Program-made: the position numbers and the translations under genes
From: Hysterangium stoloniferum
Lineage: Eukaryota; Basidiomycota; Agaricomycetes; Hysterangiales; Hysterangiaceae
NCBI GenBank assembly: GCA_015178975.1
Contig: WHVD01000034.1
Coordinates: forward strand, 310,001-374,000
Length of the DNA: 64,000 nt
Direction of reading: 5' to 3'
Notes under the pieces: model-generated
The model's input: the letters and a program-made list of their open reading frames with translations, nothing else
Database searches by the model: none
Told to the model about the DNA's origin: nothing
In this document: piece after piece, positions 3,064 to 53,584 of the stretch
Numbering within the stretch: position 1 is the stretch's first letter
How the letters are laid out: every line of letters starts with the position of its first letter

Positions 3064-6000
3064 AGGTAGGCATCACTTTAGTTCAGCACCTGTTTATGTA
3101 AGCAAAAAAGTGACCTACTCGCACTCCTTTCTGTGCTTCCACAACATAGATAATCTGTAATTAAAGCCCAGGGAAGTGGAGTTGGGATCCATTCCTCCAG
3201 TTCTCAAGTTTAAAACTTGAAAAATAATTCACCCTTGCCAAGTAGTAGGACTTACAAATTTTAACTTTTTTTTTGAGTCTCTGAATGCTTAAAAACTCAT
3301 TTCCATGTGATTCTGAGATTTTCAAAATTTTGCAAGTGTCAGTATTGGCCACTTACATAATCATCACGTGATATATTGGGCAGCCTTGTTTTAAGGGCCT
3401 AAAATTGGGAAAGAAAACTATATTAAATTCAAATATATGTACTTATCTTACTTACATAAAAATTCTCCTAAGAAAAAGAGGGTATAGCTGCACATGTACT
3501 TGTGCAGTAAGCTGTGTACTTGATCACAGGCCACATTACATAAGCAGCGCAGTGGCAAATGCACAGTTGCACAGTTCTACTACCATGCCTCAGAAGTCTA
3601 AAGCTGCACAATCTCGCATCAAAAACCTTGGATCCAAGGCACAACAAAAGCCCTCAGTGACAATCAAGGATGTCCCAGATGATGATGACTTCAATTGCAA
3701 ACCAGTTTCTCTCAATCTAGATCAAAGCAATGAAAGAATGTATGAGGAAGCATTTATTGTGGATGAAGAAGATGGATCTCTCACCTTGGTAGGCTTTCTT
3801 GATGACTTTGAGGAAGAACCTCTACTAGATCTTGCTCATGATTTGGACTTGGATGATGAAAATGATGAAAATCCTAGAGATAATTACCCAGAGATTCAAG
3901 AACTCTCTGACCTGGAACAGTTCTCAAGGATACTTGCTGAGGCACAGAGGATAGCAGTTGAGGCTGAAGATGAGAGGTTAAAGGAAAACAGGCGACCAAA
4001 GAAATATCTCAAAAACTCTGCATGAACAAAATGAAGGCATAAACAGATTGGAAAGGACCTAGAGAAGCAAGGTTACCTTTCCATTAGGACATGGTTTGCA
4101 AAAGCCAATGCTGCAGAGAGTGAGGTTAATGAGGTTGCTAGGGGGCAGAATTCTGAGTCAGATGTGGAAATGGCCACCCTTGACAAAGATCAAGAGAACA
4201 TATCTGCTGGAAAAAGCGACTCAGTGAGTTTGATCTTATGGACTGCTGTGGTTATTGTTCTACTGACCAAATATTATGAGTCAATTGAAGAAATTGAAAG
4301 ACAGGTTAACACTGAAATATATCCACCTTCCAAAGCTCATGAAAAGATTGAAGAACTCCTTCAGGCACTACGAGAAGGCCAAAAACCTGGGGACAACACT
4401 CTATCCACAGAATCTGATATCATACTGGATCAATTAAATTACAAGGACTTACCAAAGCTTTGGAAAGCCTGTGCAGCACTGACTGTGAAGAGCAAAGATA
4501 AGAAAATTGATGTTCTCTTTTGAGGATGGCTTACTGGGATGGTTGGGACATTGAACCTTTATCTTGACCCACAGCTCTCATATACCTGGCGCGAGGCTTC
4601 TCTTATTGCATCAAAATCACAAAGCCATGGAGTTAGCCATGCACGCAATCTGCAAATATGGATACATCAGTTCCTGGGTTCTGGAAAATTACCTCTTCAC
4701 AGATATGGAAAGCTACGGGGTACCCTTCTTGATGATGAGGACTTTTCACAAGCAATACAGATTCACCTGTCTGGAATTGCCAGGAACAACTATATCCAAG
4801 CTCAGGATATTGTTGACTTCATGCAGACACCAGAAATGCAAGAAAGGCTTGAGGAGATTGGTTCCAAGAAAAAGAAGATATCAATACGTACCACACAACG
4901 GTGGCTCCACAGGATGGGATGGCGATATGGGAGGAAAAGGAATGGTATGTATGTTGATGGCCATGAGAGGGAAGATGTTGTCAAATACCGGATGGAATTT
5001 ATTGAACAGTGGAAAGTCTATGACAAGCGGACGTATTCATATGATAATGATGGAAACTGTGAAGGTGAACTCACTGGATTCCCTGTCCCACCTGGCCAAC
5101 GTTTCCAGCTCATTCTTATCACCCATGATGAATCAACATTTTATGAGACTGACCGTCAGAAAACCATGTGGGCCCATCAATCAGATAAAGCAGTCCCATT
5201 AAAGAAGGGGGAAGGTGTTTCTCTCATGGTCTCAGATTTTTTGACCATTGAATGGGGAAGATTGCAAAGTGAGGATGGCATGGAGTGAGTTAATCTTGCA
5301 CTCTAAATTTAGAATTACTATTTAATCTATGAAATGCAGGTCAGCACGCATTGTCTTCAAAGCAGGAAAAAATCGTGATGGCTACTTCTCATCTGATGAC
5401 TTGATCACACAAGTTGACACAGCCATCGATATTTTTGAAGGATGGACAAATGGGTTTGCAACAGGTCTGTTCATTTTTGATAATGCACCGAGCCATCAGA
5501 AGTGTGCAGATGATGCACTTTCTGCAAGAAAGATGCCAAAGTATCCATCTGCAACCTGGGTTCATCGCAAAGGAGGCTCTCGCATGCGAAATACTGTGTT
5601 ATCAAATGGAGACACCCAGTCCTTTTATTTTGAAGAGGACCACCCTACAATGCCTGGATGGTTTAAAGGGATGGAACAAATCATCCGGGAACGAGGCCTA
5701 TGGAGGGAAAGTGGCTTACTTGCACAATGTGAAGGTTTTAAATGTGTACAAGGAAAAACTGACTGTTGCTGCCATCGCCTTCTTTTTACCCAACCAGACT
5801 TTGTGGCACAAAAATCTCAACTTGAAGAGTTCATCACATTGCGGGGTCACATCTGTGACTTCTACCCAAAATATCACTGCAAGCTTAATTTTATTGAGCA
5901 GTATTGGGGTGCAGCAAAGTTCCATTACTGAAACACCCCCAAAACCAATAACATTGTTGAGATGGAAAAGAATATGCTTACATGCTTGGATGATATCCCT

Positions 6001-17262: not shown

Positions 17263-18304
17263 TGTTACGACCGTGTCGTAACCCATGTCGCAACCCGATG
17301 GTCCCCGAGAATACTGCAGTCTTTCAATGTTCCAAGTTATTAATCAAGTCATCATTTTGGCAACCTTCGGAACACCAACGCTGACGTATACCTTCACGGC
17401 GATCAAACCCCATTTACGCCCCTGTCAAAATATACTCTACCATCTGGTTATGCTTTGATACGTCCCCTTTCATTATGATGAACTGTTTTACTTGATGTTT
17501 CACATATGCCTGTATATACCTGTAGCCTGTGGACTATTCCCTTTTCTCGTAATCCCACTCTTGGCTAAATCTCGGCTTCTGATCTTATCGTAACCTTCCG
17601 GTTTCTAGTCAAGTCTATTCGTCAAATAGTGTTTCCGCTCTTCCCTTAGTTAGTAGTTTCTAGACGCTGATAACTCATATATAAACCCACTGTAAATGTA
17701 GTTATTAGACAATCAGAATATCGACTTAGATCAACTTAGATACCCCTCTAATTTCCGACTCCATTATCTATTCACGACCACCACATTCCGACTCCCTCCG
17801 ATTTACGATTCAACCTACATTTACAACCACAACCTCTAATCTCCGACTCTCTTAGTCTCCGACTCTCTTAGTCTCCAACTGTCTCAGTCTCCAACTGTCT
17901 CAGTCTCCCACTGTCTCAGTCTCCAACTGTCTCAGTCTCCAACTGTCTCAGTCTCCCACTGTCTCAGTTTCCAACTGTCTCAGTCTCCGACTCTCTCAGT
18001 CTCCGACTCTCTCAGTCTCCGACTCTCTCAGTCTCCGACTCTCTCAGTCTCCGACTCTCTCAGTCTCCGACTCTCTCAGTCTCCGACTCTTGGTCTCCAA
18101 CCCCTCAGCCCAACCCTTGACTTATCCTTCGGTTTCCGATCGGTAGTTTACCAAGAGGTTTACTTAACAGGACTAGTTTTCGCCCGCCTGAAATTTAAGG
18201 ACACCTGACGGTAACTTGTGAGGGCACAGCACATAAGCTGAAGCCAAGTCCTTCCGTTCAGTCCCTGTCGGCCAGCCGACATCAGTCAGTTTCTGCTCTT
18301 AACA
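17263..18304 (+). mobile_element. Solo LTR, family A (long subtype)
   Basis: TGTTACGACC...GCTCTTAACA, 1042 bp. The flanks CCTCA/CCTCG are a target duplication with one mismatch. It is the same subtype as 1992-2851 but about 180 bp longer because of an expanded internal minisatellite (17841-18090). Confidence 0.85.
17841..18090 (+). repeat. 16-bp minisatellite inside LTR
   Basis: About 15 copies of a 16-bp unit of the form CTCCGACTCTCTCAGT, with two main variants (CCGACTCTCTC and CCAACTGTCTC) arranged in runs. The homologous part of the LTR at 1992-2851 has only about four copies. Confidence 0.9.
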
Positions 18305-27722: not shown

Positions 27723-28081
27723 TGTAATCCTGGCCGCCTTACCACATTGCATCACCACATCCATTCCCCTGTGTCACCAATCATACGATCCACCTTCAAG
27801 TCACCAACCCGATCTGCCGTGACCGATCCCTTTGTTGCCACTATCCACACAATAACCTCGGTCCCATTCCATTGTTACCACAATTCTATTGTTGCAATTA
27901 GAGAGATAAGTCACACCTTCTATTGTATAATGATTTTTATCTTCCTTCGACATTAATTCCTCTTCCCACTTTCCCTAGGGAATATTGCCTTCACCTACTG
28001 TATTACTTCTACTATGTACAAATAAAGAAAACTTAGTCCTGTCTGTTACCGACTGAGTGAGGCTATAACAACAGCCTTTCA
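27723..28081 (+). mobile_element. Solo LTR, family C
   Basis: TGTAATCCTGGCC...CAGCCTTTCA, 359 bp, perfect TTATA target duplication at 27718-27722 and 28082-28086. The 3' end includes ACTTAGTCCTGTC and GACTGAGTGAGG, as in the other family-C copies. Confidence 0.9.
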
Positions 28082-30519: not shown

Positions 30520-30594
30520 AGATAGCAAGCTCAACTTAGTCCTGTCCGTGTTGACCGAGTGAGGCTGATAACAACAGCCTTTCATCACATGACA
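30520..30594 (+). mobile_element. 3' end of a family-C LTR
   Basis: CTTAGTCCTGTCCGTG and GATAACAACAGCCTTTCA match the last 60-70 bp of the family-C LTRs at 8588-8936 and 27723-28081. The upstream part is not recognisable, so the copy is truncated or strongly diverged. Confidence 0.6.
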
Positions 30595-33180: not shown

Positions 33181-33417
33181 CAAAGCTTCTTTCACTACAC
33201 CAACTACTTACTTCTCATAACATGGACACCCCTCTAAATGATGAACACCCTCGTATCCGTGCTTCTCCTCGTTTCCCTCGTGAGCGGGTACTAACCGCAG
33301 AGGTTAGTACCCGCTCACGAGGGAAACGAGGAGAAGCACGGATACGAGGGTGTTCATCATTTAGAGGGGTGTCCATGTTATGAGAAGTAAGTAGTTGGTG
33401 TAGTGAAAGAAGCTTTG
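33181..33417. repeat. Perfect palindrome, 116-bp arms
   Basis: The left arm 33181-33296 and right arm 33302-33417 are exact reverse complements with a 5-bp spacer (GCAGA, 33297-33301). Pairing fails at the next base outward (33180/33418). The arms contain a short proline/serine-rich frame in both directions. Such a structure could extrude as a cruciform or be transcribed as a long hairpin. Confidence 0.95.
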
Positions 33418-35038: not shown

Positions 35039-38003
35039 GCTGAAAGTTGTGTTGACTTGGTTGAATATCCGTTTGGCGGTGAAGTGTACGTCAATCGTTC
35101 ATGATGGATGAAATCCGCTGTGCGTTCAACTAAAATGGTGATGTATTAGTGTCCGACGGATGGATAGTTGTCTTTTCACGTTAGACGATTCCTCGTTCGA
35201 TATCGGTACTCATTTCTTTTTCTTCATCCCATTTTTTGTTTCTTGTTACATATTCTTTTGAATTTAATTGGGCCCCGTCCCTGCCAACGTCGTACGCTAA
35301 GTGTTCTTTCCTGTGTCGTATAAACGTAAATATCTAATAGATATGTATTCGAAACTAAAACAAGTAAATCTGCCCAATACTCTAGCACGCACAAAAAAAC
35401 CACCAAAACAAATATTATTATTTAGCATGGACAAAAAAGTACAAATCCGGAAACTATTTTTTCATTTTGACGTCAGCGGAGTCACGATAATTCTGAATTA
35501 TTTATGGACAAAAATAATAGTTTTTATTTTTATTTTTATAGATCTAATCAAACCATATCGGCCGATGCCCTACACAACGCCACAGAAAGACCAGACGGTC
35601 AGGAAAGAATTCCGAAGCATCGATATTAAATTGATAAGGTCACGTGTGATGATCGATGAACGCGGCATCGTCCGTTTTAAGCTCGGAGCTCCTTGCCCGG
35701 AGATGCTTCTTGCCCTTTAATGGCGCTTAATCTGACATGGGTCTCTTGGCTAATGATAGGCAAGTCGCTACGTTTCGCACGGCTCAGCGTCGGTCATAGG
35801 AGGCCGTGGGCTGTGGAACATGATCCGTATATAGTACATTCTTTATTTGCCCCTGCTTTTTGAATTGTGGTTTTAGTATGGCGACATCGTCTCTATTCTT
35901 AGCTTGGCTTCTTTCTCAACAAGATGTATTGGAAGTGGTCACAATGGTCACAATCACACGAGGCTGGAGCATCCATTAATAGTGGAGGGCGCGCTGAAAC
36001 AGCCGGAATAAATGGCTCAAGTGAGGAGACTGTCTAATGACGACAAACATGTATTGGTGTTTATATCTTAGCCGTAGAAGGGACTGAGTAAATTCATTGA
36101 CGACCTACCCTCCTTCGTGACTGGCTTAGTCGTAGGGTCTATGTCATCAGTAGTGCATTGACTTGGTATACATGAAACCTGTCACACGACATCATGTGGG
36201 GCTAAAGATTGGCAGAAGTTGCACCCAACCAAAGGGGGATGAAATTGATGCGGGATAGCTTGGTGGGGGGTGATTCCGGCGGAACGCCTTCGTCAGGAGA
36301 TTACCGGATACATTAAAAATTTATATTCATCAAACATGCGCGCGATGACTGAGTATCCGCGGATTTGTTGGGTATGTGGGGTTTTCATATTAGTTGCGCA
36401 GATTATTTATAAGAAGGTAAAGTACACGCCCTTGGGAGGTCCTACCAGCATTATACATCTATATCGAGACGAGATAAGCAAGTATGTGCGAGAATGCGAA
36501 AGGGACAGGTAGGCGACGGGCGCTTGTTCTGACAGTTCAATTTTAAGCAACTCCGAAATGGATGGTGTATGACTCGTGACTTGTATTTCCATTCTTTGAT
36601 GATTTCTGGCCCGATTGAGAAGAATTTCTCGTTAAGGAACTAAATATTAAAAGGATAGAATAGAAGGGGGATCGGGGCACAGAATAGTGACCTTAGTGGA
36701 CAAATAGACCACCACTCGGACACAGACACAGAATGGTTAACAGAAGTAACCGAACTCAGACGACCGCATACTGGACAGAGTCACAGACGTGGATAGGGAC
36801 TATTATGGATACATGTGGGTACATAATGTTCTGAACCACAAATTCCAACACTAAAGCCCATGCTCGACGTAATTGGACGAAGCGATGGCATCAAATGACC
36901 CGGCGGCAACTTGGCACACGTTCCGAAACTCCGACTTAACTATTGTTTCAGTCAAAACCGGCCAAAATGCCAACTATTGGAACCGCCTTTTCTTTTTGAC
37001 GGGTTGCGCCCGCGTAGCTTCACTTAGTTTTAAACCCAAACATAAGCAAAATTCATGCGATCTCGTAGAAAATGCAAAAGAGAGCTACGCCACCCTCCCA
37101 GGCACAGGTCCACATTTGGAAATAAACCCAAGCGATCTTGCTCGTTCTTCAACCACAATTTCCTGAACAAACCGTCTTTTGCGGCATCTTTTACGTTGCA
37201 GCCGAATTTCGGCCCAATCGCCAAACGCCACAGTAGGCGCCCGTCGCCTACTGCTTATCTTGCCGACTGACGTCTCCCAAGCGATCGCGTGACGGTACAG
37301 CTTAAGCTTCCGCAGGTCACAGCGAAATTAAAGATGCGCCCCGCGCGTCGGGGCATCGTGGTATGCCAAAGTCCAGTTCCTCCCATCCGCTTGGCGTTCC
37401 CAGTGTTGAGTTGCCCAAGGATTTTACCTGACTTATCTCTAATGGGGCTCTTTGCACAGGTGATTCCATCTATTGCTCTAAATACCCAACAGATGTAACC
37501 AATCCGATAATACCGTGCGACAAACGAAGTTTACTTGTAAGCTTGTGACTTGAGGAGATAACCCAACTCCATCAACCATATTAATGATAAGTGTTCACGT
37601 GATGTAAAAAACTATGTATATATCCCCCTTGTATTCATTTAACTTCTCACTATTTGACTGGCGCCCTCCCTCTCTTTTGGGAACTATGGGGCGTTACTTG
37701 GTGGAGACACGACAAGATAAGCCACAAGATCATAACAACATCAAGCTCGTCGTTATACCTGAGAGCTCTGTCTGGGGCTCTAGATAGCGTATGAGTCTTC
37801 AGTGAATAATACGATGCATGTAATAATCAAACTATATGTGTGAGGAGCTGAGCTCCGCTTCTTTTCGAAGCCGAAATGATTTCTATAGGCACCTGCATTG
37901 CATTGGTAAGCAATGTATTATCAATTTTTTTTGGAGACAATAAAGACTACGAGTATTTTGACCGCCCACGCCATAAACCCACATGTTTCTGAAACTTATC
38001 GCT

Positions 38004-41000
38004 ATGGGCCTAAAAGCTTTTGCATACGACGTTGGAGCTATAGCTCACGTCGCTCTTCTTTTGATTGGAATTTGCTACGGAGTTGGACTGGCCATGGAAT
38101 ACCCAGTGTAAGCCGATCGTCCTCGTCTCCCCACGCCACGCTGACATGCCCCATGTAGCATTTCAGGCCTAATCCAGTACACCGTTAACATTGCCGTCCA
38201 CATTTTCGAGATCGCCCTTCTTGACCTTGGCAAATTTGGAAGCTACCTCCGCTCTCTCAGTGGCCCGTTGTCAATGAAGGCGAGCGGGGTTGTCTCCAAC
38301 AAGTTCATCGTTTTTCTGAAACCGCACAATCGGTTGGAGGCCCTGCGCCTCCTCTACTCTATCGCGACCAGGCTCCTCGAGCCATCACCCGCACCTGCCC
38401 ACGCCCCGCAAATTACTTGGGCTTCAAGATCCCTGGCGCTCTTCAAGGTCGTCACAGGAGCCAAGATCGACCGACACTACGCCGGTCTCATCATTAGTTG
38501 GTTGCCCGTTGGCGCCAGCTCCCATTTGGAATTGCGGACTTGCTATCGTCAAAGGTAAGTCAGCGACATTGGAATGACATGCTGTATTATCTGACCATTT
38601 TCACAGTCTTCCTCCGGTTCAGTACTCGCTCTCACAGACGATGTCCGTGATCCCAGCGATGCTGTTCCGAATTCCTATAACGGCAGATGTTATGGATCAA
38701 GCCGTCCGGATCTTGTATGGCGTTGAGGAGTACATCGATGCAGAGATTTGCCCCAAGGTCACGTCAAGGTATGTTTATTTTTTTCTTTATATGTCAACCA
38801 TTGACAAACCGCACGTACAGAATCGCCTCGACCGCCACGTGCATCATGGCGGTGCTCACGCTGCTCGTCCTTGAGCTCGCCTGCAGCCCTGTCCGGACTG
38901 GTTGCCGTCGCGTGTGTGGGGCACTCACAGGGCTTCTCTTGTATGCCATTCACTGGTTACTTGAAGCCCTGCCCACTATCCGACGTTTGATCCACAGGAT
39001 ATCGGCATACTCCTGTATGTCGGTATGCATGGTACTCAGGGCGGGGTATTTGACATGCACCTACTTTCTGAAAATTTGCATTACTGCAGTTGACTCCCCC
39101 TCTGCGACAATCCCACCTCCCATCGCTGCCCCCCCTGCGCCCGCAGTCGGGGTCGTCAATGAGGAGGCCGAGGTTGCCGACGATGCCAATGAAGACGAAG
39201 ACAACGACGACGTCTTCGTCTATCCCGCCAACGATGCCGACGAAGACGAAGACAACGACGACGTCTTCGTCTATCCCGCCAACGATGCCGACGAAGACAA
39301 AGACGACGACGACGTCTTCGTCTATCCCGCCAACGATGCCGACGAAGACGAAGACGACAACGACGTCTTCGTCTATCCCGCCAACGATGCCGACGAAGAC
39401 GAAGACGACAACGACGTCTTCGTCTATCCCGCCAACGATGCCGACGAAGACGAAGACGACAATGTCTTCATCTATCCCATGTCCGGCACCACAAAGAGGG
39501 AAGCGGAAAATGGTCAAGAAATACCTCCGAGTCGTAAGTCGTGATTTATATTAACACCACAAGAAATATAAGACTGACAGACAGGCTCTCCAACAGAGGG
39601 CAGTTCTAAGCCATACCAGGACAAAGCCGATCTCGTCGCCGTCCCCCCTGAGCCCGTGCCTGCCCAAATGGTAATCAATGGGGAGGCCAACGTTGCCAAG
39701 GATGCCGACGAAGACGACGACGACGACGACGTCTTCGTCTATCCCATGTCTGGCACCACAAAGAGGGAAGCAGCAAATGGTCAAGAAATACCTCCGAGTC
39801 GTAAGTCGTGATTTATATTAACACCACAAGAAATATAAGACTGACTGACAGGCTCTCCAACAGAGGGCAATTCTAAGCCTTACCAGGACAAAACCGATCT
39901 CGTCGCCGTCCCCCCTGAACCCGCGCCTGCCCAAACGGTCATCAACGAGGAGGCCAAGGTCACCAACGATGCCGACGAAGACGAAGACAATGATGTCTTC
40001 ATCTATCCCATGTCCGGCACCACAAAGAGGGAAGCGGAAAATGGTCAAGAAATACCTCCGAGTCGTAAGTCGTGATTTATATTCACACCACAAGAAGTAT
40101 AAGACTGACAGACAGGCTCTCTAACAGAGGGCAGTTCTAAGCCATACCAGGACAAAGCCGATCTCGTCGCCGTCCCCCCTGAGCCCGTGCCTGCCCAAAT
40201 GGTAATCAATGGGGAGGCCAACGTTGCCAAGGATGCCGACGAAGACGACGACGACGACGACGACGTCTTCGTCTATCCCATGTCTGGCACCACAAAGAGG
40301 GAAGCAGCAAATGGTCAAGAAATACCTCCGAGTCGTAAGTCGTGATTTATATTAACACCACAAGAAATATAAGACTGACTGACAGGCTCTCCAACAGAGG
40401 GCAATTCTAAGCCTTACCAGGACAAAACCGATCTCGTCGCCGTCCCCCCTGAACCTGCGCCTGCCCAAACGGTCATCAACGAGGAGGCCAAGGTCACCAA
40501 CGATGCCGACGAAGACGAAGACGATGATGTCTTCATCTATCCCATGTCCGGCACCACAAAGAGGGAAGCGGAAAATGGTCAAGAAATACCTCCGAGTCGT
40601 AAGTCGTGATTTATATTCACACCACAAGAAGTATAAGACTGACAGACAGGCTCTCCAACAGAGGGAAATTCTAAGCCATACCAGGACGAAGCCGATCTCG
40701 TCGCCGTCCCCCCTGAGCCCGCGCCTGCCCAAACAATCGTCAACGAGGAGGCCAACGTCACCAACGATGCCGACGAAGACGAGGACGGGGACGAGGACGA
40801 CGTCTTCGTCTACTGTCCCATGTCCGTCGCGAGTCCCCCTGCGCCCGCGCCTGCCCAAACGGTCGTCAACAAGGAGGCCAAGGTCGCTGACGATGCCGAC
40901 GATGAAGTGTTGGAGTTCGACGACTGTGCGCTGTCCCGCACCGCCCCTCCCGTCGCAGCCCTCCCGCCCATGGCAGCCACCCCTCCAGTCGCCCCCCCTC

Positions 41001-41194
41001 CAGTCGCTGCCGCCGCGATTTCCATGGCGAGACACCACTTGGGCCTGGACTCAAGGGGTGGCCCCCGGACTCGGAGGGTGGAGGTTAATACAGCGGCAAG
41101 GGCCAGCGGAGGACGAGAGACAATGGGGGACGAGAGGCAGCGGGGGACGAGAGGCAGCGGGGGACGAGAGGCAGCGGGGGACGAGAGGCAGTAG
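38004..41194 (+). CDS. Predicted membrane protein with acidic exon-repeat tail
   Basis: Nine exons join in one frame: 38004-38107, 38159-38554, 38607-38768, 38821-39533, 39597-39800, 39864-40064, 40128-40334, 40398-40598 and 40662-41194. They sum to 2721 nt (906 residues and a stop). All introns are GT-AG, 51-63 bp. The N-terminal third has hydrophobic segments (IAHVALLLIGICYGVGL in exon 1; MAVLTLLVLELAC, LTGLLLYAIHWLLEAL and SVCMVLRAGYL in exon 4). Exon 4 then carries six tandem 17-residue units around DADEDEDNDDVFVYP. Exons 5-8 are near-copies of one another, each with GxSKPYQDKxDLVAVPPEP, one acidic DVFxYP unit and MSGTTKREA. Exon 9 has one more unit, then a proline/alanine-rich and a glycine/arginine-rich end. 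I do not recognise the family. The long acidic tail probably faces the cytoplasm or wall side and is likely disordered; that is inference. Lack of stops across nine exons argues that the gene is functional. Confidence 0.8.
39183..39475 (+). repeat. 51-bp coding minisatellite, six units
   Basis: Six tandem units of 51 bp in frame, each encoding a 17-residue acidic motif ending VFVYPAN; the last unit is slightly shorter. Units differ by a few bases, mostly swaps of GAC and AAC codons. Confidence 0.92.
39534..40661 (+). repeat. Tandem intron-exon repeat, period about 265 bp
   Basis: Five introns of exactly 63 bp (39534-39596, 39801-39863, 40065-40127, 40335-40397, 40599-40661) alternate with exons of 204, 201, 207 and 201 nt. 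Exons 5 and 7 (AQMVINGEANVAKD) resemble each other more than exons 6 and 8 (AQTVINEEAKVTND), so the array is a duplicated dimer (A-B-A-B) followed by the longer last exon. Confidence 0.92.
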
Positions 41195-43695
41195 CAGCGG
41201 ATGAGAAGTAGGGGCAGCAGGGTATGGGCAGCAGGGACTGAGGCCAGATATACTGCTTTCTTTTCCAGTTTTTCTTTCTTCTTTTCTTTCTTCTTTTCTT
41301 CTTTCTTTCTTCTTTTCTTTCTTCTGGTATTTATTTTTTCTATTCGTTTCTCTGGTTTATGGGGTCGCTTGATTTTGACTCGTATATTTAAGAACAAGGT
41401 GCGCCGTTATTATCACCTTTCCTGATATATTTACTCATTGGTTGTCGTTAAGCTGTGTCTGTTTCGTGAGTATTGTGTCCTCGGAGTTTCCTAGGTCGAG
41501 TACTTGCTGTGCAAGCACTTGGGACGTCACCGAGGAGGTGCTGCATGTTGGACAATTAAACGTGCGTTCATTTATTAAAGCTTCTTAATCCTTTCTAACG
41601 TTGCCTTCCCTCTTTCTTCATCTTTCAGCGGCTTAGGTGCAACGGGGCATCCGCGCAAGGGCTTACCCCGGCAACTCCCGACTGCTGAAGTACATAACAT
41701 TCTCATTTATTTTGACCTCGTCTAACACACATTTTTTTTAGTACGTAACCGACTCAGGACTACCTGAGCATCCATCGCCCAGCAACTCCACAATGGTGAC
41801 ACTGAAGACCCACTGAGGGACGCAAGGCTGGACAGCGGACCCCCAGGAAATGGCCAAAATGACACCCAGTGAGTCCATCGTCCTATATATTGCGTAATTT
41901 AGGAACTAACACCACTACATACCTATACATTTGTTTGCAGGACGTCAAGACCGGGGAACTAACTCCGATTTCGTAAGGCTTTCCTGGTTTCGACCCCGGC
42001 TTCCTGCGATGAACTCTGTTAGCATCCTACCTCGGACTGTATCAGCTGGTACGGGTAAAATCCAATGATGGCCCTGCAACGATGCAACTGTAAGTTTCTC
42101 TTGCTCCCGTACAGTTAATTTTTTTCCTACTGAGCTCATCCGATCTCCAGCGGCCCCAAGTAACGGTTTGGCTGTCCATCGGCAGCACCCCTCTGTATCC
42201 CATATGGTCGGGCTACACTCTGCATCAGTCTCAGAGTGTAGCCCGGCTACGAGTCCGACAGAAATTCTGGTAAGCTTCCGTTCATGATAAATCTTTTGAT
42301 ACTGCATTCTGACATCTTGTTTAGATGACACATGAAGTACTAACAAACAGACCTTTAAATCCAGCGACGTTCTTAAATTTGACGAGTTAAACCAAGCCGG
42401 GTTTCACCTTTCCCAGACCAAATATTTTTATTCTTTTTGTTAACTTTTCTTTGATTGCATCATTTTTTGTTCTATTTCTTTTGGTTTTGTTAGTCTCATA
42501 AATAGCTTAATAAAATATAATACAAATAAATCTTGTTATAAAAAATTAAAATGTCTTAGGCAATCTAATGACTCATAGAATGTGAATGATTATTTGCTGA
42601 TGAGTTACTGTTTATGGTATATTTGGCATTTCTCTGTTATGGAAATACTAGATTCAACAAATGAATTACTATTGATATTACAGTATGTGTTTATTCTGAG
42701 GTGTTTTAACATGCATATGCATATCCCTCATGCTGAACAGGAGATTTGAGCTGTGTTGCTGACTAAGTGGTCTAGTATTTTTTTTCACTTGATACCATCC
42801 TCCATGGATGTTGTCTGACTTAGTATTGGCTAAAAATATTGACAATCTCAATTGACAAAGGTGATATGTACATACAGTATGTAGGACAGTATGTGTACTG
42901 TTTTATGATGAACTAATGGCTTTTTTCTTCTAACTTCCCATGTATTTTGTAAGGGGTTGGTGTCATGATGCTGAAGAGCTGAGTGGAGGAATCTGGACAA
43001 TTAAAGATACATGTTTGCCACTCTATACTGCTCTGGTGATTATAATTTTATTCAAGAGGAATGTTAGGAAGTCATTACAGGCTTGGTGGCATTGGTTTGA
43101 GTCAGTCACTACATGGAGATCTTTAGGTTATTGTGGAGATAAAGGTGAGATTGTACTATACATTTCATATTTGTGTTCTGGCTGATTTTCTTCATAATAT
43201 GCAAAAGAATTCTAAAAACCTTTTTTTTTTTGACCCAGAGTTTGATGAGGCATGAGAGTTTCCTTAGTGAGTACTTATTCTTTACTTTTTGTTTATCTCT
43301 TTCTAGCTTGCTTATCTAGTCCAATGTCACAAGGCTATGTCATTTATCCAGAGGGTATCCCTGCCTATCTAAACATGCAACACATCAAATTTGAGTGTTT
43401 TTGCACATTGTTGTTGCCTGTATTGCTATTTGTAGAGGTGGAGACCATTGCTGGACTAACCTGGACATTCTGCTCTGATTGTGGCTTAAATGGTAAGTTG
43501 GATGGTGCTTATATACTGTATCATGCATCGTTTGCTAAATCATGCCTAGTCATTATTGATGAGAAGTATGTGAGTCTCAACCTTCTGGCAGATTATCCCA
43601 CACAGGGTAGAGGTGGTGGTGTGTTGGAGATGTGTGTTTAATAGCCAGGGTGGCCTAGTGTCTTTACAGCTGTCTCACCAGTGTCTTCTACTCCA
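41195..43695. other. Interval, no supported gene
   Basis: A polypyrimidine tract (about 41256-41330) follows the repeat gene. A perfect hairpin with 14-bp arms (CGGGCTACACTCTG) and a 9-nt loop lies at about 42207-42243. Frames at 42940-43185 and 43252-43641 show no domain I can name; the phrase IDEKYVSLNLLADYPTQGRG near 43560 looks protein-like but is isolated. Confidence 0.35.
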
Positions 43696-49236: not shown

Positions 49237-49528
49237 TGATTTGGACAAAAATAATTTGTCCACGTTCTCTGAAGGAGGCACGTGATATCGACAACAATGC
49301 TCGATCACTTTTTACGCCACTCATCGTTCTTTTGTTCCCTTTTCTCTTTGTTCTCTCTCATTGTTCTTTATCCTATATATCCCGCATTCCTAGTTCCACA
49401 CTCCCCATCTCGTCTCGTCTCAATTCCGCACTCGATAGGTACTTGTTTTCCCTTTCTCGCATCTCGTCTCGTCTCAATTCCGCACTCGATAGTCTTCAAA
49501 GACTTCGAGTTCTGCTTATATTTTCGCA
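49237..49528 (+). repeat. Ngaro A1 repeat
   Basis: 292 bp, from TGATTTGGAC to ATTTTCGCA, matching A2 at 53691-53982. It contains two further direct blocks with CTCGTCTCGTCTCAATTCC. A CTATATATCCC stretch at about 49374 could be the start of the promoter region. It ends 16 bp before the gag-like ATG. Confidence 0.92.
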
Positions 49529-49544
49529 GATTCCTCGGTAGTGC

Positions 49545-50777
49545 ATGTTTGGACGGAAACAGCTGGCTACTCCCAAACCACCTACCGCGCTTCTTCCATT
49601 GCAACCTAAAACTAGGGACAAACAGAAAGCCACCATACCTCCCTCTACTCGTGCGCTTCGCAGTCGACCTTTGCCTAGCACTTCCGCCGATATCGAGCCT
49701 GACCCATTCGCCGAGTCTGATTTTTCTGATTTCCTTTACACCCCTAGGTCGCAATCCACAATGTCTAATCCCATTCCCTTGGGCTCTGGCCCCCATCAGT
49801 GCTCCGACACAGCACACAATCCTGACGAGATTCGTGCCCCTCCCCCCATCCCATCTGCCGTGCAGCCCCCACCGACAAACTCAGAGCTTTTTGCCATCCT
49901 CCAGAACATGGCTTTGCAAATTGCATCTCTCCAGCAGCAACCTCAGCCTTCCGCCGCGCCACTCCAACCGCTTCCCCTTTCCCAGCCTGGCTCTGGTCCA
50001 CCGCTACCCCCTCCCACCCATGCCATCCCCCCGCAAGTCCCCTATGCTTTTCAACCCACCTCTCCGCCTTCAGCGATGGGCGGTTTCTTGCCTCCACCAG
50101 GGCATTCGAGCTCTGGTGCGTCATCTTCTTTGATCTCCCTTTTCCCCGATATCGAGGAGACGATGCTGCTGGCTATCATCCGGCATTCCTTCCGGCCCAA
50201 TCAACTTGCTAAGCTGGACACACGCATTCATACCAAGCCGAAAAAACCTACTTATGAGTTTCAGGATGGGGTATATGTGCAAGCAGAACGTGCATCAACA
50301 AAGGATTTTCCCAATTTTGAGTCCCTCTACTACCCTCTCTCACGTTACTTCGGCGTCCTCCACGCTCATGTGCTTTCGGGTCCCCCCTCTCCTTCGATAA
50401 CTGCCTTTATCCTTGGCACTTCCAGCTACCTCTCTTTGCTCTGCTCCTGGTATTTGGAGTATGACTGGATGGCACTATCAAACTACCATTTCGCTTTTCA
50501 CTCTAAGCGCTTGACCGAGATGGCTAGGGGCGATTTCTCCCACTGGGGAGAACTGGATGCTTACCTTCAGGGTCAGTATCTTCTCGGCCACCCCCGCATT
50601 CGGCCAGGAAAGTCTTCCACCCCTCGCGCTGCAAATGATACTTCGAAGTCTTCACCTTGCAGAGACTTCAATTACCGAAAGTGCCTTAGGGAGAAATGCT
50701 ATTGGGTCCACAAATGCCAACTTTGCGACAGTAGTGACCATGGGGCTTCCTCTTGCCCCTCTAAGAAGTCCACTTAG
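49545..50777 (+). CDS. Gag-like protein of Ngaro element
   Basis: 410 codons from an ATG at 49545. After a proline/serine/glutamine-rich, probably disordered N-terminal half (about residues 1-200) comes a helical region (SLISLFPDIEETMLLAIIRHSF, YLSLLCSWYLEYDWM). The C-terminus has a cysteine/histidine cluster (CRDFNYRKCLREKCYWVHKCQLC, then DHGASSC) resembling a nucleic-acid-binding knuckle. The likely role is packaging of the element RNA. The frame is open from end to end. Confidence 0.82.
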   Translation: MFGRKQLATPKPPTALLPLQPKTRDKQKATIPPSTRALRSRPLPSTSADIEPDPFAESDFSDFLYTPRSQSTMSNPIPLGSGPHQCSDTAHNPDEIRAPPPIPSAVQPPPTNSELFAILQNMALQIASLQQQPQPSAAPLQPLPLSQPGSGPPLPPPTHAIPPQVPYAFQPTSPPSAMGGFLPPPGHSSSGASSSLISLFPDIEETMLLAIIRHSFRPNQLAKLDTRIHTKPKKPTYEFQDGVYVQAERASTKDFPNFESLYYPLSRYFGVLHAHVLSGPPSPSITAFILGTSSYLSLLCSWYLEYDWMALSNYHFAFHSKRLTEMARGDFSHWGELDAYLQGQYLLGHPRIRPGKSSTPRAANDTSKSSPCRDFNYRKCLREKCYWVHKCQLCDSSDHGASSCPSKKST

Positions 50778-50789
50778 GGGTATGGCACG

Positions 50790-52913
50790 GTGGGGAAATT
50801 AACCTTGCCGTCTCCTCACCATAGCCTTCTTGGCACGTCAATTACCCAGTCACCGGCTCACTCGTCCCTGCATCCCCTCCCTTTTCCTGATCTGTTTACT
50901 CCGCATTGCCTTCCACCTCTCCGCCCCAACTCTGACCCCCGTTGCAATCTTGTACCCTCATCTCCCCCAATGCTCCCCACCATTTCCTCCCCACTAAATT
51001 TGCAAGCATGGGACTTCCATCTTCGGGACTACCCTGACCGCACATTTGTCACATCATTACTTCACATAATAAAACATGGTGCTCTTATTGGTTTTAATGG
51101 TGACGATCATGAGCAATATTGCAAAAACTTAGCATCGGCCTTTGAGCATCCGCAGGAAGTTTCTTCCTTTATTAACAAGCTTTTATTGAATTCGCATGCT
51201 GTGGGCCCGTTCCCCACTCATCCCCTACCCCACTTCCGCTGCTCTCCTCTAGGAATCGCTACGCGTAAACGCAGCTCTAAACTCCGGCTCATCAACCACC
51301 TTTCATGGCCTCCATCGTCATCGGTCAACCATGGGATTCCCGATTCTGAAGCCTCTATCACTTACGAATCCTTTGAAGCGGCACTTCAAGTCATTCGCCA
51401 ATTCGGTCCTGGGACCCTTTTAGCTAAACTCGACCTTAAAGAAGCATTCCATCATATTCCGGTCGCTCCATCGCAATGGCATCTCCTCGGTTTCCACTGG
51501 GAAGATCATTTCTATCACGCGATAGTTCTTATTTTCGGCCTGCGTTCGGCCCCTTATATATTCAACCTGTTTGCCGAAGCCTTACACTGGATCATTGTGC
51601 GCCACATTCCAGCTGCTCTTCGCCACTATCTCGACGATTTCCTGCCCATATTTCGTCCTGGCACATCCCTACCCATTGCTAATGCCGCCATCGATTGGTG
51701 CCAAGCGCTTGGCCACCAACTCGGCCTCTCATTTCAACATGAAAAAACTATCCGGCCATGTACAACACTAGAGTATCTAGGGTTAGAAATTGATACTATT
51801 GCCATGGAAGCACGTTTGCCCGCTACTAAACTGACCTATCTCCGCGAGATTCTCAGTGCTGCTATTATCGCCCCCACCTTTACATTGAAGCAAGTTCAGG
51901 AACTCATTGGGTTCCTCCAGTTCTCCGCGCAGGTTATCCCTCATGCTCGAGCATTCATCCGACGCCTTATCGACTTCTCTATGTCATTCACTTCTCCATT
52001 CTCGCGCCGCCACATACCGGCTTACGCTCGGAGTGATATTCGGTGGTGGCACACCTTCTCTCATGCCTGGAATGGCATTGCCATCATCCAACCATCCCTT
52101 CCAACACTGCATGTGTATACTGATGCCAGTGGTCGAAAAGGCATTGGTGGTATATTTGGCAACCAATGGTATTCTGCACGCATACCTCGTCGCTTTCGTG
52201 AGCGCGATATCCAATTCAAGGAGATATACGCAGTTCTCCAGGCCATTACACGCTGGGGTTATCTTTGGTCCGGCCATCACATTGTGTTCCATGTTGATAA
52301 CTCTGCCATTGTCGCTGCACTCACACAGGGGACCACCAGAGCACGCTTTGCCATGTCCATTGTCCGTGATATTGCCATGCTAGCATCGTTTCTGAGATTC
52401 TCCTTCTCTTCCTCTTGGCTTTCGTCCGAGACGAATGCCCTTGCTGACTCTGCCTCTCGCTTTCAATATGCACGCTTATTTACTCTTAACCCTTCTTTGT
52501 GCCCACAGAACTGCTCGAACAACCCCCGGCTCGTTGGTATCAGACGAACGCTCACCTCTCCCCACCGGTCGCCTTTTTCCTTTGGTATGGCCTCGCCAGC
52601 AGCACTAGACGAACATATACCACGGGGCAACGTTCATTCATTGACTTCATCACCCTCCGCCCTCATCTCCTCAACCAGGATCGATCCTTCCTCCCATCCA
52701 ACAAGAATGCTGTCGTTGAATGGGTTGCCCATCTCGGGCTCACCAGGCGACTCAAAGCATCGACGATCAAGTCATACCTCGGTCACCTCAAGTCTCTCCA
52801 CATCGACGCGGATCTCTCTTTCACAGCTGTCGAGGCTCCCCTCGTCCAGCGTGTCATCAGGGGCATCAAGCGCTATTTTGGCGAGTGTGCCCGTCATCCC
52901 GTTGCACCTATAA
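50790..52913 (+). CDS. Reverse transcriptase / RNase H of Ngaro element
   Basis: The frame begins 12 bp after the gag-like stop; the true start is uncertain because the first codon is not ATG. RT landmarks in order: LRLINHLSWPPSSSVN, AKLDLKEAFHHIPV (catalytic D), FGLRSAPYIF, and the YLDDF box near 51630. The RNase H part has TDASGRKGIGGIF (about 52115), FKEIYAVLQAI and HVDNSAIVAALTQG, ending near SSETNALADSASRF at 52470. Beyond that the frame overlaps the recombinase frame for about 415 bp in another phase. These elements are known to express RT and recombinase as parts of one polyprotein or by read-through. Confidence 0.88.
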   Translation: MGKLTLPSPHHSLLGTSITQSPAHSSLHPLPFPDLFTPHCLPPLRPNSDPRCNLVPSSPPMLPTISSPLNLQAWDFHLRDYPDRTFVTSLLHIIKHGALIGFNGDDHEQYCKNLASAFEHPQEVSSFINKLLLNSHAVGPFPTHPLPHFRCSPLGIATRKRSSKLRLINHLSWPPSSSVNHGIPDSEASITYESFEAALQVIRQFGPGTLLAKLDLKEAFHHIPVAPSQWHLLGFHWEDHFYHAIVLIFGLRSAPYIFNLFAEALHWIIVRHIPAALRHYLDDFLPIFRPGTSLPIANAAIDWCQALGHQLGLSFQHEKTIRPCTTLEYLGLEIDTIAMEARLPATKLTYLREILSAAIIAPTFTLKQVQELIGFLQFSAQVIPHARAFIRRLIDFSMSFTSPFSRRHIPAYARSDIRWWHTFSHAWNGIAIIQPSLPTLHVYTDASGRKGIGGIFGNQWYSARIPRRFRERDIQFKEIYAVLQAITRWGYLWSGHHIVFHVDNSAIVAALTQGTTRARFAMSIVRDIAMLASFLRFSFSSSWLSSETNALADSASRFQYARLFTLNPSLCPQNCSNNPRLVGIRRTLTSPHRSPFSFGMASPAALDEHIPRGNVHSLTSSPSALISSTRIDPSSHPTRMLSLNGLPISGSPGDSKHRRSSHTSVTSSLSTSTRISLSQLSRLPSSSVSSGASSAILASVPVIPLHL

Positions 52914-53584
52914 CCCTTCCTATTCTCCAACGCCTCATTAGGTTCTCCCTCCCACACTCGTCAATTCATGCTGCAACGATCGACGCAGCCATTAAACTGG
53001 CTTTCGCAGGTTTCTTACGCTGTGGCGAATTCACCGTGAAAGGGAGTAAATTTAAAACCTTTGATCCTTCTGCTCACTTGACCAGAAGCGCCATTTCTTT
53101 CTTGCCTACTTTCGAGAACCCCTCCCACATTACTATCACTTTCCCTGCCTCCAAAACTGACCCCTTTCGGAAGGGCATCACCACTTATGTTGCCACCGTG
53201 GCTGCCGCCACTTGTGCCGTGCATGCCCTCCGATACCTTTTTATTGCAGACCCACGCCCTCCTAATTCACCCCTATTTTGCAATGACGATGGATCCCCCC
53301 TTCAGTATTCTCTCTTCGTGTCTTCTCTCCGATCCCTCCTCCACACCGCTGGTTTCGATCCTACCGACTTCGCGGGTCACTCCTTTCGGAGGGGCGCAGC
53401 TTCTTCCGCTGCTGAAGCAGGGTTTACTGATTACGAAATTCAACTGATGGGGCGCTGGCGCAGTGACGCCTACAAACTTTACATTGAGTCCTCCTGCACA
53501 CGCATTCTTAACCTCTCTGCTAGGCTTCATTGGGCCGTTCCCACCGCTCAACCTCCCGGTCCGCTGGACCTTCGTCTCACTTAA
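52499..53584 (+). CDS. Tyrosine recombinase of Ngaro element
   Basis: About 360 codons. The N-terminal SAM-like half (STRRTYTTGQRSFIDF, KASTIKSYLGHLKSLH) is followed by the catalytic half. LRCGEF carries the first arginine, the box at 53375-53400 (AGHSFRRGAASSAA) has the histidine and second arginine, and QLMGRWRSDAYKLYI holds the tyrosine nucleophile. It would integrate a circular DNA copy without target duplication. The frame is open to the stop just before B1. Confidence 0.88.
   Translation: MPTELLEQPPARWYQTNAHLSPPVAFFLWYGLASSTRRTYTTGQRSFIDFITLRPHLLNQDRSFLPSNKNAVVEWVAHLGLTRRLKASTIKSYLGHLKSLHIDADLSFTAVEAPLVQRVIRGIKRYFGECARHPVAPITLPILQRLIRFSLPHSSIHAATIDAAIKLAFAGFLRCGEFTVKGSKFKTFDPSAHLTRSAISFLPTFENPSHITITFPASKTDPFRKGITTYVATVAAATCAVHALRYLFIADPRPPNSPLFCNDDGSPLQYSLFVSSLRSLLHTAGFDPTDFAGHSFRRGAASSAAEAGFTDYEIQLMGRWRSDAYKLYIESSCTRILNLSARLHWAVPTAQPPGPLDLRLT

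Follow-up and report, generated by a model that had tools for sequence, protein, structure and literature searches.

The window, a 64,000-nt stretch of Hysterangium stoloniferum DNA, carries on its forward strand a predicted nine-exon gene (38004-41194), whose features are collected in Table 1. Once spliced, its exons join without internal stop into a single open frame of 2721 bp, encoding 906 amino acids plus a stop, with GT-AG introns throughout, in keeping with the nine exons proposed in a preliminary description made from the sequence. An in-frame ATG at 37983 offers a possible protein start 7 residues earlier. Introns 1, 2 and 3 measure 51, 52 and 52 nt, respectively. The introns that follow form a distinct set, each 63 nt long when read to a CAACAG acceptor and then with pairwise identities of 59 to 63 positions out of 63. 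This equal-length set had been described as introns 5-9; the equality in length stands but the numbering does not, as nine exons leave eight introns and the set comprises introns 4-8. Exons 5-8, of 204, 201, 207 and 201 bp, are all multiples of three and show the symmetric 1-1 phase attributed to them.

Table 1. Features of the nine-exon gene and of the adjoining DNA (window coordinates).
Feature	Position	Strand	Basis or remark
Upstream DNA, retained next to further copies of the unit	36850..37990	+	
Exons 1-4	38004-38107, 38159-38554, 38607-38768, 38821-39533	+	One open frame after splicing
Part encoded by exons 1-4: conserved N-terminus, likely to have membrane segments, followed by the first stretch of the acidic tail	38004..39533	+	
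Acidic array of six 51-bp units, in exon 4	39176..39478	+	TRF; particular to the window copy among those read
~264-bp tandem array, A-B-A-B, one whole intron per unit	39432..40787	+	TRF, substitution matrix
Exon 4 end identical to the end of paralogue exon 5 (fusion point)	39432..39533	+	102/102 bp
Exon 5 (type A)	39597..39800	+	Splice model and substitution matrix
Exon 6 (type B)	39864..40064	+	Splice model and substitution matrix
Exon 7 (type A)	40128..40334	+	Splice model and substitution matrix
Exon 8 (type B)	40398..40598	+	Splice model and substitution matrix
Exon 9: last motif DVFVYCP, degenerate relic, Pro-rich stretch, terminal 17-bp repeat	40662..41194	+	
Introns 4-8, near-identical set	39534-39596, 39801-39863, 40065-40127, 40335-40397, 40599-40661	+	
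Downstream DNA, kept beside other copies	41257..42489	+	

The acceptor of introns 4-8 is uncertain. An alternative one, GACAG, lies in frame 12 nt before CAACAG and would bring these introns to 51 nt, the size of introns 1-3. The shorter reading retains the residues RSPTEG in the protein, and two relatives have RSPTDG or RSPTDD at that place. In these relatives, L034 and L042, a homologous stretch is present with a GT donor, in phase 1 and with an earlier acceptor (59 and 65 nt as read); downstream of it the exon reads PKVTPSTRSPTDGHPRRPY or PKVTPRTRSPTDDHPRRPH, as compared with PPSRSPTEGSSKPYQD in the window gene with 51-nt introns. Because the exon start obtained in this way matches that of L034 and L042, the comparison favours an intron of 51 nt, which fits the relatives better than 63 nt. 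Note that L042 retains CAACAG as well, a point in favour of neither acceptor, and that the reading frame is preserved with both. Were an intron of this set retained, translation would end early (PPSRKS*).

TRF detected two overlapping arrays at the gene, 51 bp × 6.0 and 264 bp × 5.1, with the reservation that the copy numbers of assembled arrays may be wrong. The first bears out the six-fold 51-bp minisatellite previously described in exon 4. The second begins inside exon 4, finishes inside exon 9 and carries a whole phase-1 intron in each unit; it is 100% identical to C268:238543-239898, further upstream on the same contig. Substitutions between its exons amount to 0 for exons 5 and 7, which differ by one extra codon, to 2 for exons 6 and 8, and to 21 for every A-B pair, confirming 5/7 and 6/8 as the closest pairs. 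It had been proposed that a single exon was duplicated, diverged and was then duplicated as a dimer. The divergence of A and B and the copying of the dimer agree with our data, but the thing copied does not: the unit is not an exon but a DNA stretch whose breakpoints lie within exons. The 11 acidic DVFxYP units counted earlier comprise nine strict motifs and two variants, NVFIYP at the end of exon 4 and DVFVYCP in exon 9, where a degenerate relic lacking the DVF portion (NKEAKVADDADDE) comes after the last unit. A literature search for the DVFVYP motif found no mention of it.

A near paralogue with the same A-B-A-B units lies 111 kb upstream of the window gene on the same contig (C268:237083 onward, in L041). 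Its exon 4 contains a single acidic unit with an A-type end, and the gene continues with six of the near-identical introns, five inner exons arranged B-A-B-A-B, and the last exon. Letter for letter, exons 5-8 of the window gene are exons 6-9 of the paralogue, and introns 4-8 are its introns 5-9; the paralogue holds one more unit, and the window gene is without the paralogue's intron 4 and the exon ends surrounding it. Window exon 4 resembles paralogue exon 4 at its start and corresponds over its final 102 bp to the end of paralogue exon 5, with the other 51-bp units in between. The six-fold 51-bp array, particular to the window copy, sits precisely where exon 4 joins this paralogue-exon-5 end. 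The 102-bp identity, together with the one missing intron, makes a deletion removing the intron, followed by slippage, appear likelier than a separate 51-bp amplification inside an intact exon. Two mechanisms had been thought to multiply one motif; both arrays are indeed there, but an independent amplification of the shorter one is the less likely part of that proposal. The opposite direction, an intron gained by the paralogue instead of a deletion in the window copy, is possible, the comparison being one of two copies.

The identity between these two genes is uneven. Between 39600 and 41000 we counted no mismatch and one gap column, compared to 27 and 18 mismatches per 200 bp over the first 400 bp of the gene (exons 1-2), 3 to 13 mismatches per bin in the upstream stretch and 1 to 8 after 41000. 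From this unevenness we infer that the array and the 3′ part were probably shared between the paralogues more recently than the start of the gene, via gene conversion or a duplication that recombined; an effect of the assembly is also possible. A third fragment, with the 3′ part of the gene, is found at C268:243101.

The gene belongs to a large family. The N-terminal protein matches 75 places in the genome with E no higher than 0.01 (all 63 candidates scored), and joining matches over 2.5 kb gives 32 clusters on 22 contigs, an approximate family size in that some clusters contain two or more copies and a few adjacent ones may belong to a single gene. In copies matched by both exon 2 and exon 3, the break falls at the position of the window's intron 2. 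Relative to L041, the leading exons display a dN of 0.055 and a dS of 0.114 (ratio 0.48), and relative to the C72 copy (L043) a ratio of 0.38. Exon 3 is the most constrained, with dN/dS of 0.00 against L041, 0.14-0.24 in the C72, C181, C535, C179 and C520 copies, 0.33 in the C206 copy, which has a stop there, and 0.30-0.39 for the distant copies on C168 and C74. Exon 2 is looser (0.76 against L041), and short pieces give values near or above 1, namely 1.58 for an exon 2 piece of L045, 0.99 and 0.87 for exon 1 of L047, and 0.95 for an exon 1 piece of L044. Within the array, A and B differ by 9 synonymous changes over 43 sites and 12 non-synonymous changes over 155 (p 0.022, from rounded counts), and the same A-B comparison in the other two frames revealed no synonymous excess. 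Judged by dN/dS and by this excess, the nine-exon gene looks coding. The complete lack of a homologue with the motif, together with random divergence between units, had been named in advance as speaking against the preliminary description; the apparent coding character of the gene and the copy on C519, which contains the motif once, run counter to this objection.

Past the conserved part, the relatives end differently. The C72 tail consists of a 17-bp unit repeated 42.5 times, rich in Pro; that of C519, whose frames seem to be broken, of 4.4 copies of a 33-bp Pro-coding unit and, after them, its one motif, DDDDVFIYPMSGTTKREAVNGQEI; and C206 has no tandem array in its 10 kb. In L062, the donor is missing. 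Note that all three forward frames of the C72 minisatellite (L043 reverse strand, 3280-4010) are open over its whole length, so that translation would continue through a frame shift within it.

With regard to the protein itself, Pfam returned no match to 529 of its amino acids at E up to 1, and for a five-member N-terminal set it returned only DUF7182, in two of the five members, with a best E of 0.37 (member 1 scores 10.8 bits, the cut-off being 27). No PDB chain matched at E up to 1, with the single sequence or with a profile. In a 19-residue hydropathy scan, the mean reaches at least 1.6 in two regions, residues 3-36 and 220-247, and weaker regions appear at 1.2 (residues 35-62, 178-196, 252-274 and 286-308). 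By simple hydropathy, the N-terminal membrane segments suggested beforehand are thus likely. The 588 residues after position 318 bear a net charge of −109.

The DNA surrounding the gene is also present elsewhere in the genome. Window DNA from ~30.6 to 42.5 kb recurs wholly or partly on C268, C72, C181, C206, C5 and C83. The downstream stretch has at least 49 matches (40 of 175 candidates scored) and the upstream stretch at least 46 (40 of 275 scored); a 201-bp insertion at 36650-36850 alone accounts for 12 of the latter. In two places the gene between the flanks is lost or short. On C38 (L061, C38:199501-203500), they are kept around an imperfect palindrome of ~680 bp and 76% identity standing in the gene's place, and on C287 (L064), the upstream end and the downstream stretch flank ~1.6 kb without any tblastn match to this protein. 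The arms of the L061 palindrome (reverse strand, 2207-2885) are ~340 bp long and 76% alike, and their translation is, by eye only, faintly family-like. Relatives run on past 42489 and have no common right end, for which reason we read the flanks, with moderate confidence, as a segmental duplication with decay rather than as a defined element. A mobile element ending at 42489, where the downstream matches at first seemed to stop sharply, was rejected: the relatives continue beyond this position, which is a cut in the window copy.

Taken together, we consider it probable that the gene stands for a much-duplicated family with a likely membrane N-terminal part and a fast-changing acidic, probably disordered tail that was lengthened by intron-bearing repeats. 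The process may have started with similar short motifs on either side of one ancestral intron, whose misalignment would have allowed unequal crossing-over or slippage to copy an intron-bearing unit. Because the unit is of phase 1-1, the frame would be kept with each copy, and exons and introns would be added without any new splice site. One unit would have been duplicated and have diverged into A and B, after which the A-B pair would have been copied as a dimer. Later, in the window copy, an exchange between neighbouring acidic motifs would have removed one intron and placed two motifs adjacent to each other, and slippage would afterwards have raised these two to six. As to the tail, we suggest, only weakly, that it may be a flexible, acidic extension of a length that is not tuned but simply tolerated.

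Other explanations of the repeats deserve consideration. Near-identical introns can be introner elements inserted one by one, and the similarity of the five introns, together with a 59-bp stretch resembling exon end plus intron that occurs at 11 dispersed places with 78% identity, would suit such an origin. However, the surrounding exons were copied too, within the 264-bp unit, and when seven of the 11 dispersed places were compared, L034 matched the other six over long stretches, as well as L064, L062 and L042 of this family's unit. The exon parts having been copied with the introns, and the places read being relatives with no unrelated gene among them (seven of 11 compared), we rejected an introner origin as extremely improbable. 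The gene could also be the cargo, or the own gene, of a mobile element, with the array as a product of its decay. The recurrence of upstream and downstream DNA at many places speaks for it, as does the loss or shortness of the gene in L061 and L064; against it, the relatives pass 42489 without a common right end, and no transposase domain was detected by Pfam in the three open stretches examined from 30 to 46 kb (the scan of the window covered 20 of its 46 open stretches of at least 130 codons). We hold this explanation to be unlikely.

Docking or ion-binding had been put forward as a putative role of the motif. Selection is invoked by a further possibility, that each acidic DVFxYP unit is a putative binding or docking site and that the number of repeats is selected. 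The motif is retained in all 11 units, and the synonymous excess between A and B points the same way, but relatives have quite other repeats at that place (17-bp Pro-rich in C72, 33-bp Pro-coding in C519, none in C206) and recent copying alone keeps units alike. We hold a functional array to be unlikely. A bolder proposal is that the family is a generator of diversity, with conserved flanks between which a fast-changing coding cassette is swapped, converted and re-expanded from copy to copy. If true, the loci would share one membrane part but differ in the repetitive tail attached to it, like families of variable surface proteins, and the acidic DVFxYP array would be an instance of such a display that gene conversion has made common to two loci; we regard this as very unlikely. 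The lengthening of the tail by intron-bearing repeats is the reading we retain.

Expansions of this type have precedents. In the sections of Sharpton et al (2008; PMC2395259) devoted to it, the Cryptococcus neoformans gene CNN00420 is a single-copy gene whose introns 3, 4 and 5 are identical, with exonic repeats of ~39 nt and repeats of ~107 nt that include exon ends and the full intron; the evidence comprises ESTs, and the repeat number varies among strains. The authors knew one further example, TOUCH3. According to the relevant part of another article (PMC4974935), which cites Gao and Lynch (2009), internal duplication multiplies a pre-existing intron and makes none anew. The window gene resembles CNN00420, as far as those sections describe it, in its near-identical introns within one gene and in its two levels of repeat, one short and exonic, the other including the intron. 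It differs by the size of the repeats (51 and ~264 bp), by the A-B dimer order and by its membership of a gene family; while ESTs and strain variation back CNN00420, the window gene is known from the sequence of one genome, with a paralogue in place of strains. As in Arabidopsis TOUCH3, as these articles present it, an existing intron was multiplied along with the exon sequence on either side, but TOUCH3 is described as having undergone two tandem duplications, whereas the window gene and its paralogue have five and six such introns and a repeat of higher order. The coding repeats of the yeast FLO genes, as that text presents them (PMC2395259), similarly form a tail able to change by slippage, although the window repeats, unlike these, contain introns.

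Features expected of intron multiplication by repeat expansion are found together here: several near-identical introns in one gene (introns 4-8), a unit with exon ends and a whole intron (264 bp × 5.1), and relatives with fewer such introns, since L034 and L042 hold the intron-like stretch once, a single-intron state read from two copies that look decayed, as several relatives are broken. Intron gain through the expansion of intron-containing repeats is a known process that is seldom documented, and the window gene appears to be an unusually clear example of it. To the published cases it would add the ordering in A-B dimers, together with a paralogue that seems to capture a step of intron loss with the appearance of a short array. 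Within one genome, relatives have the intron-like stretch once, the paralogue has six of the introns and the window gene five, and the short array of the latter sits at the apparent site of an intron's removal, which would make this an unusually complete case of gain and loss by repeat expansion. For annotators, it is a warning that near-identical introns need not be introners.

Several other elements were observed in the window. The insertion upstream of the gene (36645-36850, about 201-206 bp), not present in the paralogue L041, has CTAAA on both sides and copies of 95-98% identity at no fewer than 12 listed places; its reverse strand starts with TGTTGGAATT, and from this start we take it to be solo-LTR-like. 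A near-perfect palindrome of ~237 bp, 99% identical to its own reverse strand, occupies 33181-33417, and the C72 and C181 relatives are alike at the same place. Two similar stretches, 28030-28080 and 30520-30586 (AACTTAGTCCTGTC...ACAACAGCC), are perhaps the ends of an inserted element; the genome has 52-bp copies of the second, 98-100% identical, at over 12 places. Open stretches at 49273-53581 encode a reverse transcriptase domain (PF00078, above cut-off) with an adjoining tyrosine-recombinase match (PF00589) just under its cut-off, an element that we assume to be perhaps DIRS-like. A Tc5-type transposase DNA-binding domain (PF03221, above cut-off) is encoded on the reverse strand at 620-1417, and a 16-bp minisatellite of 15.7 copies with 95% matches extends from 17840 to 18090.
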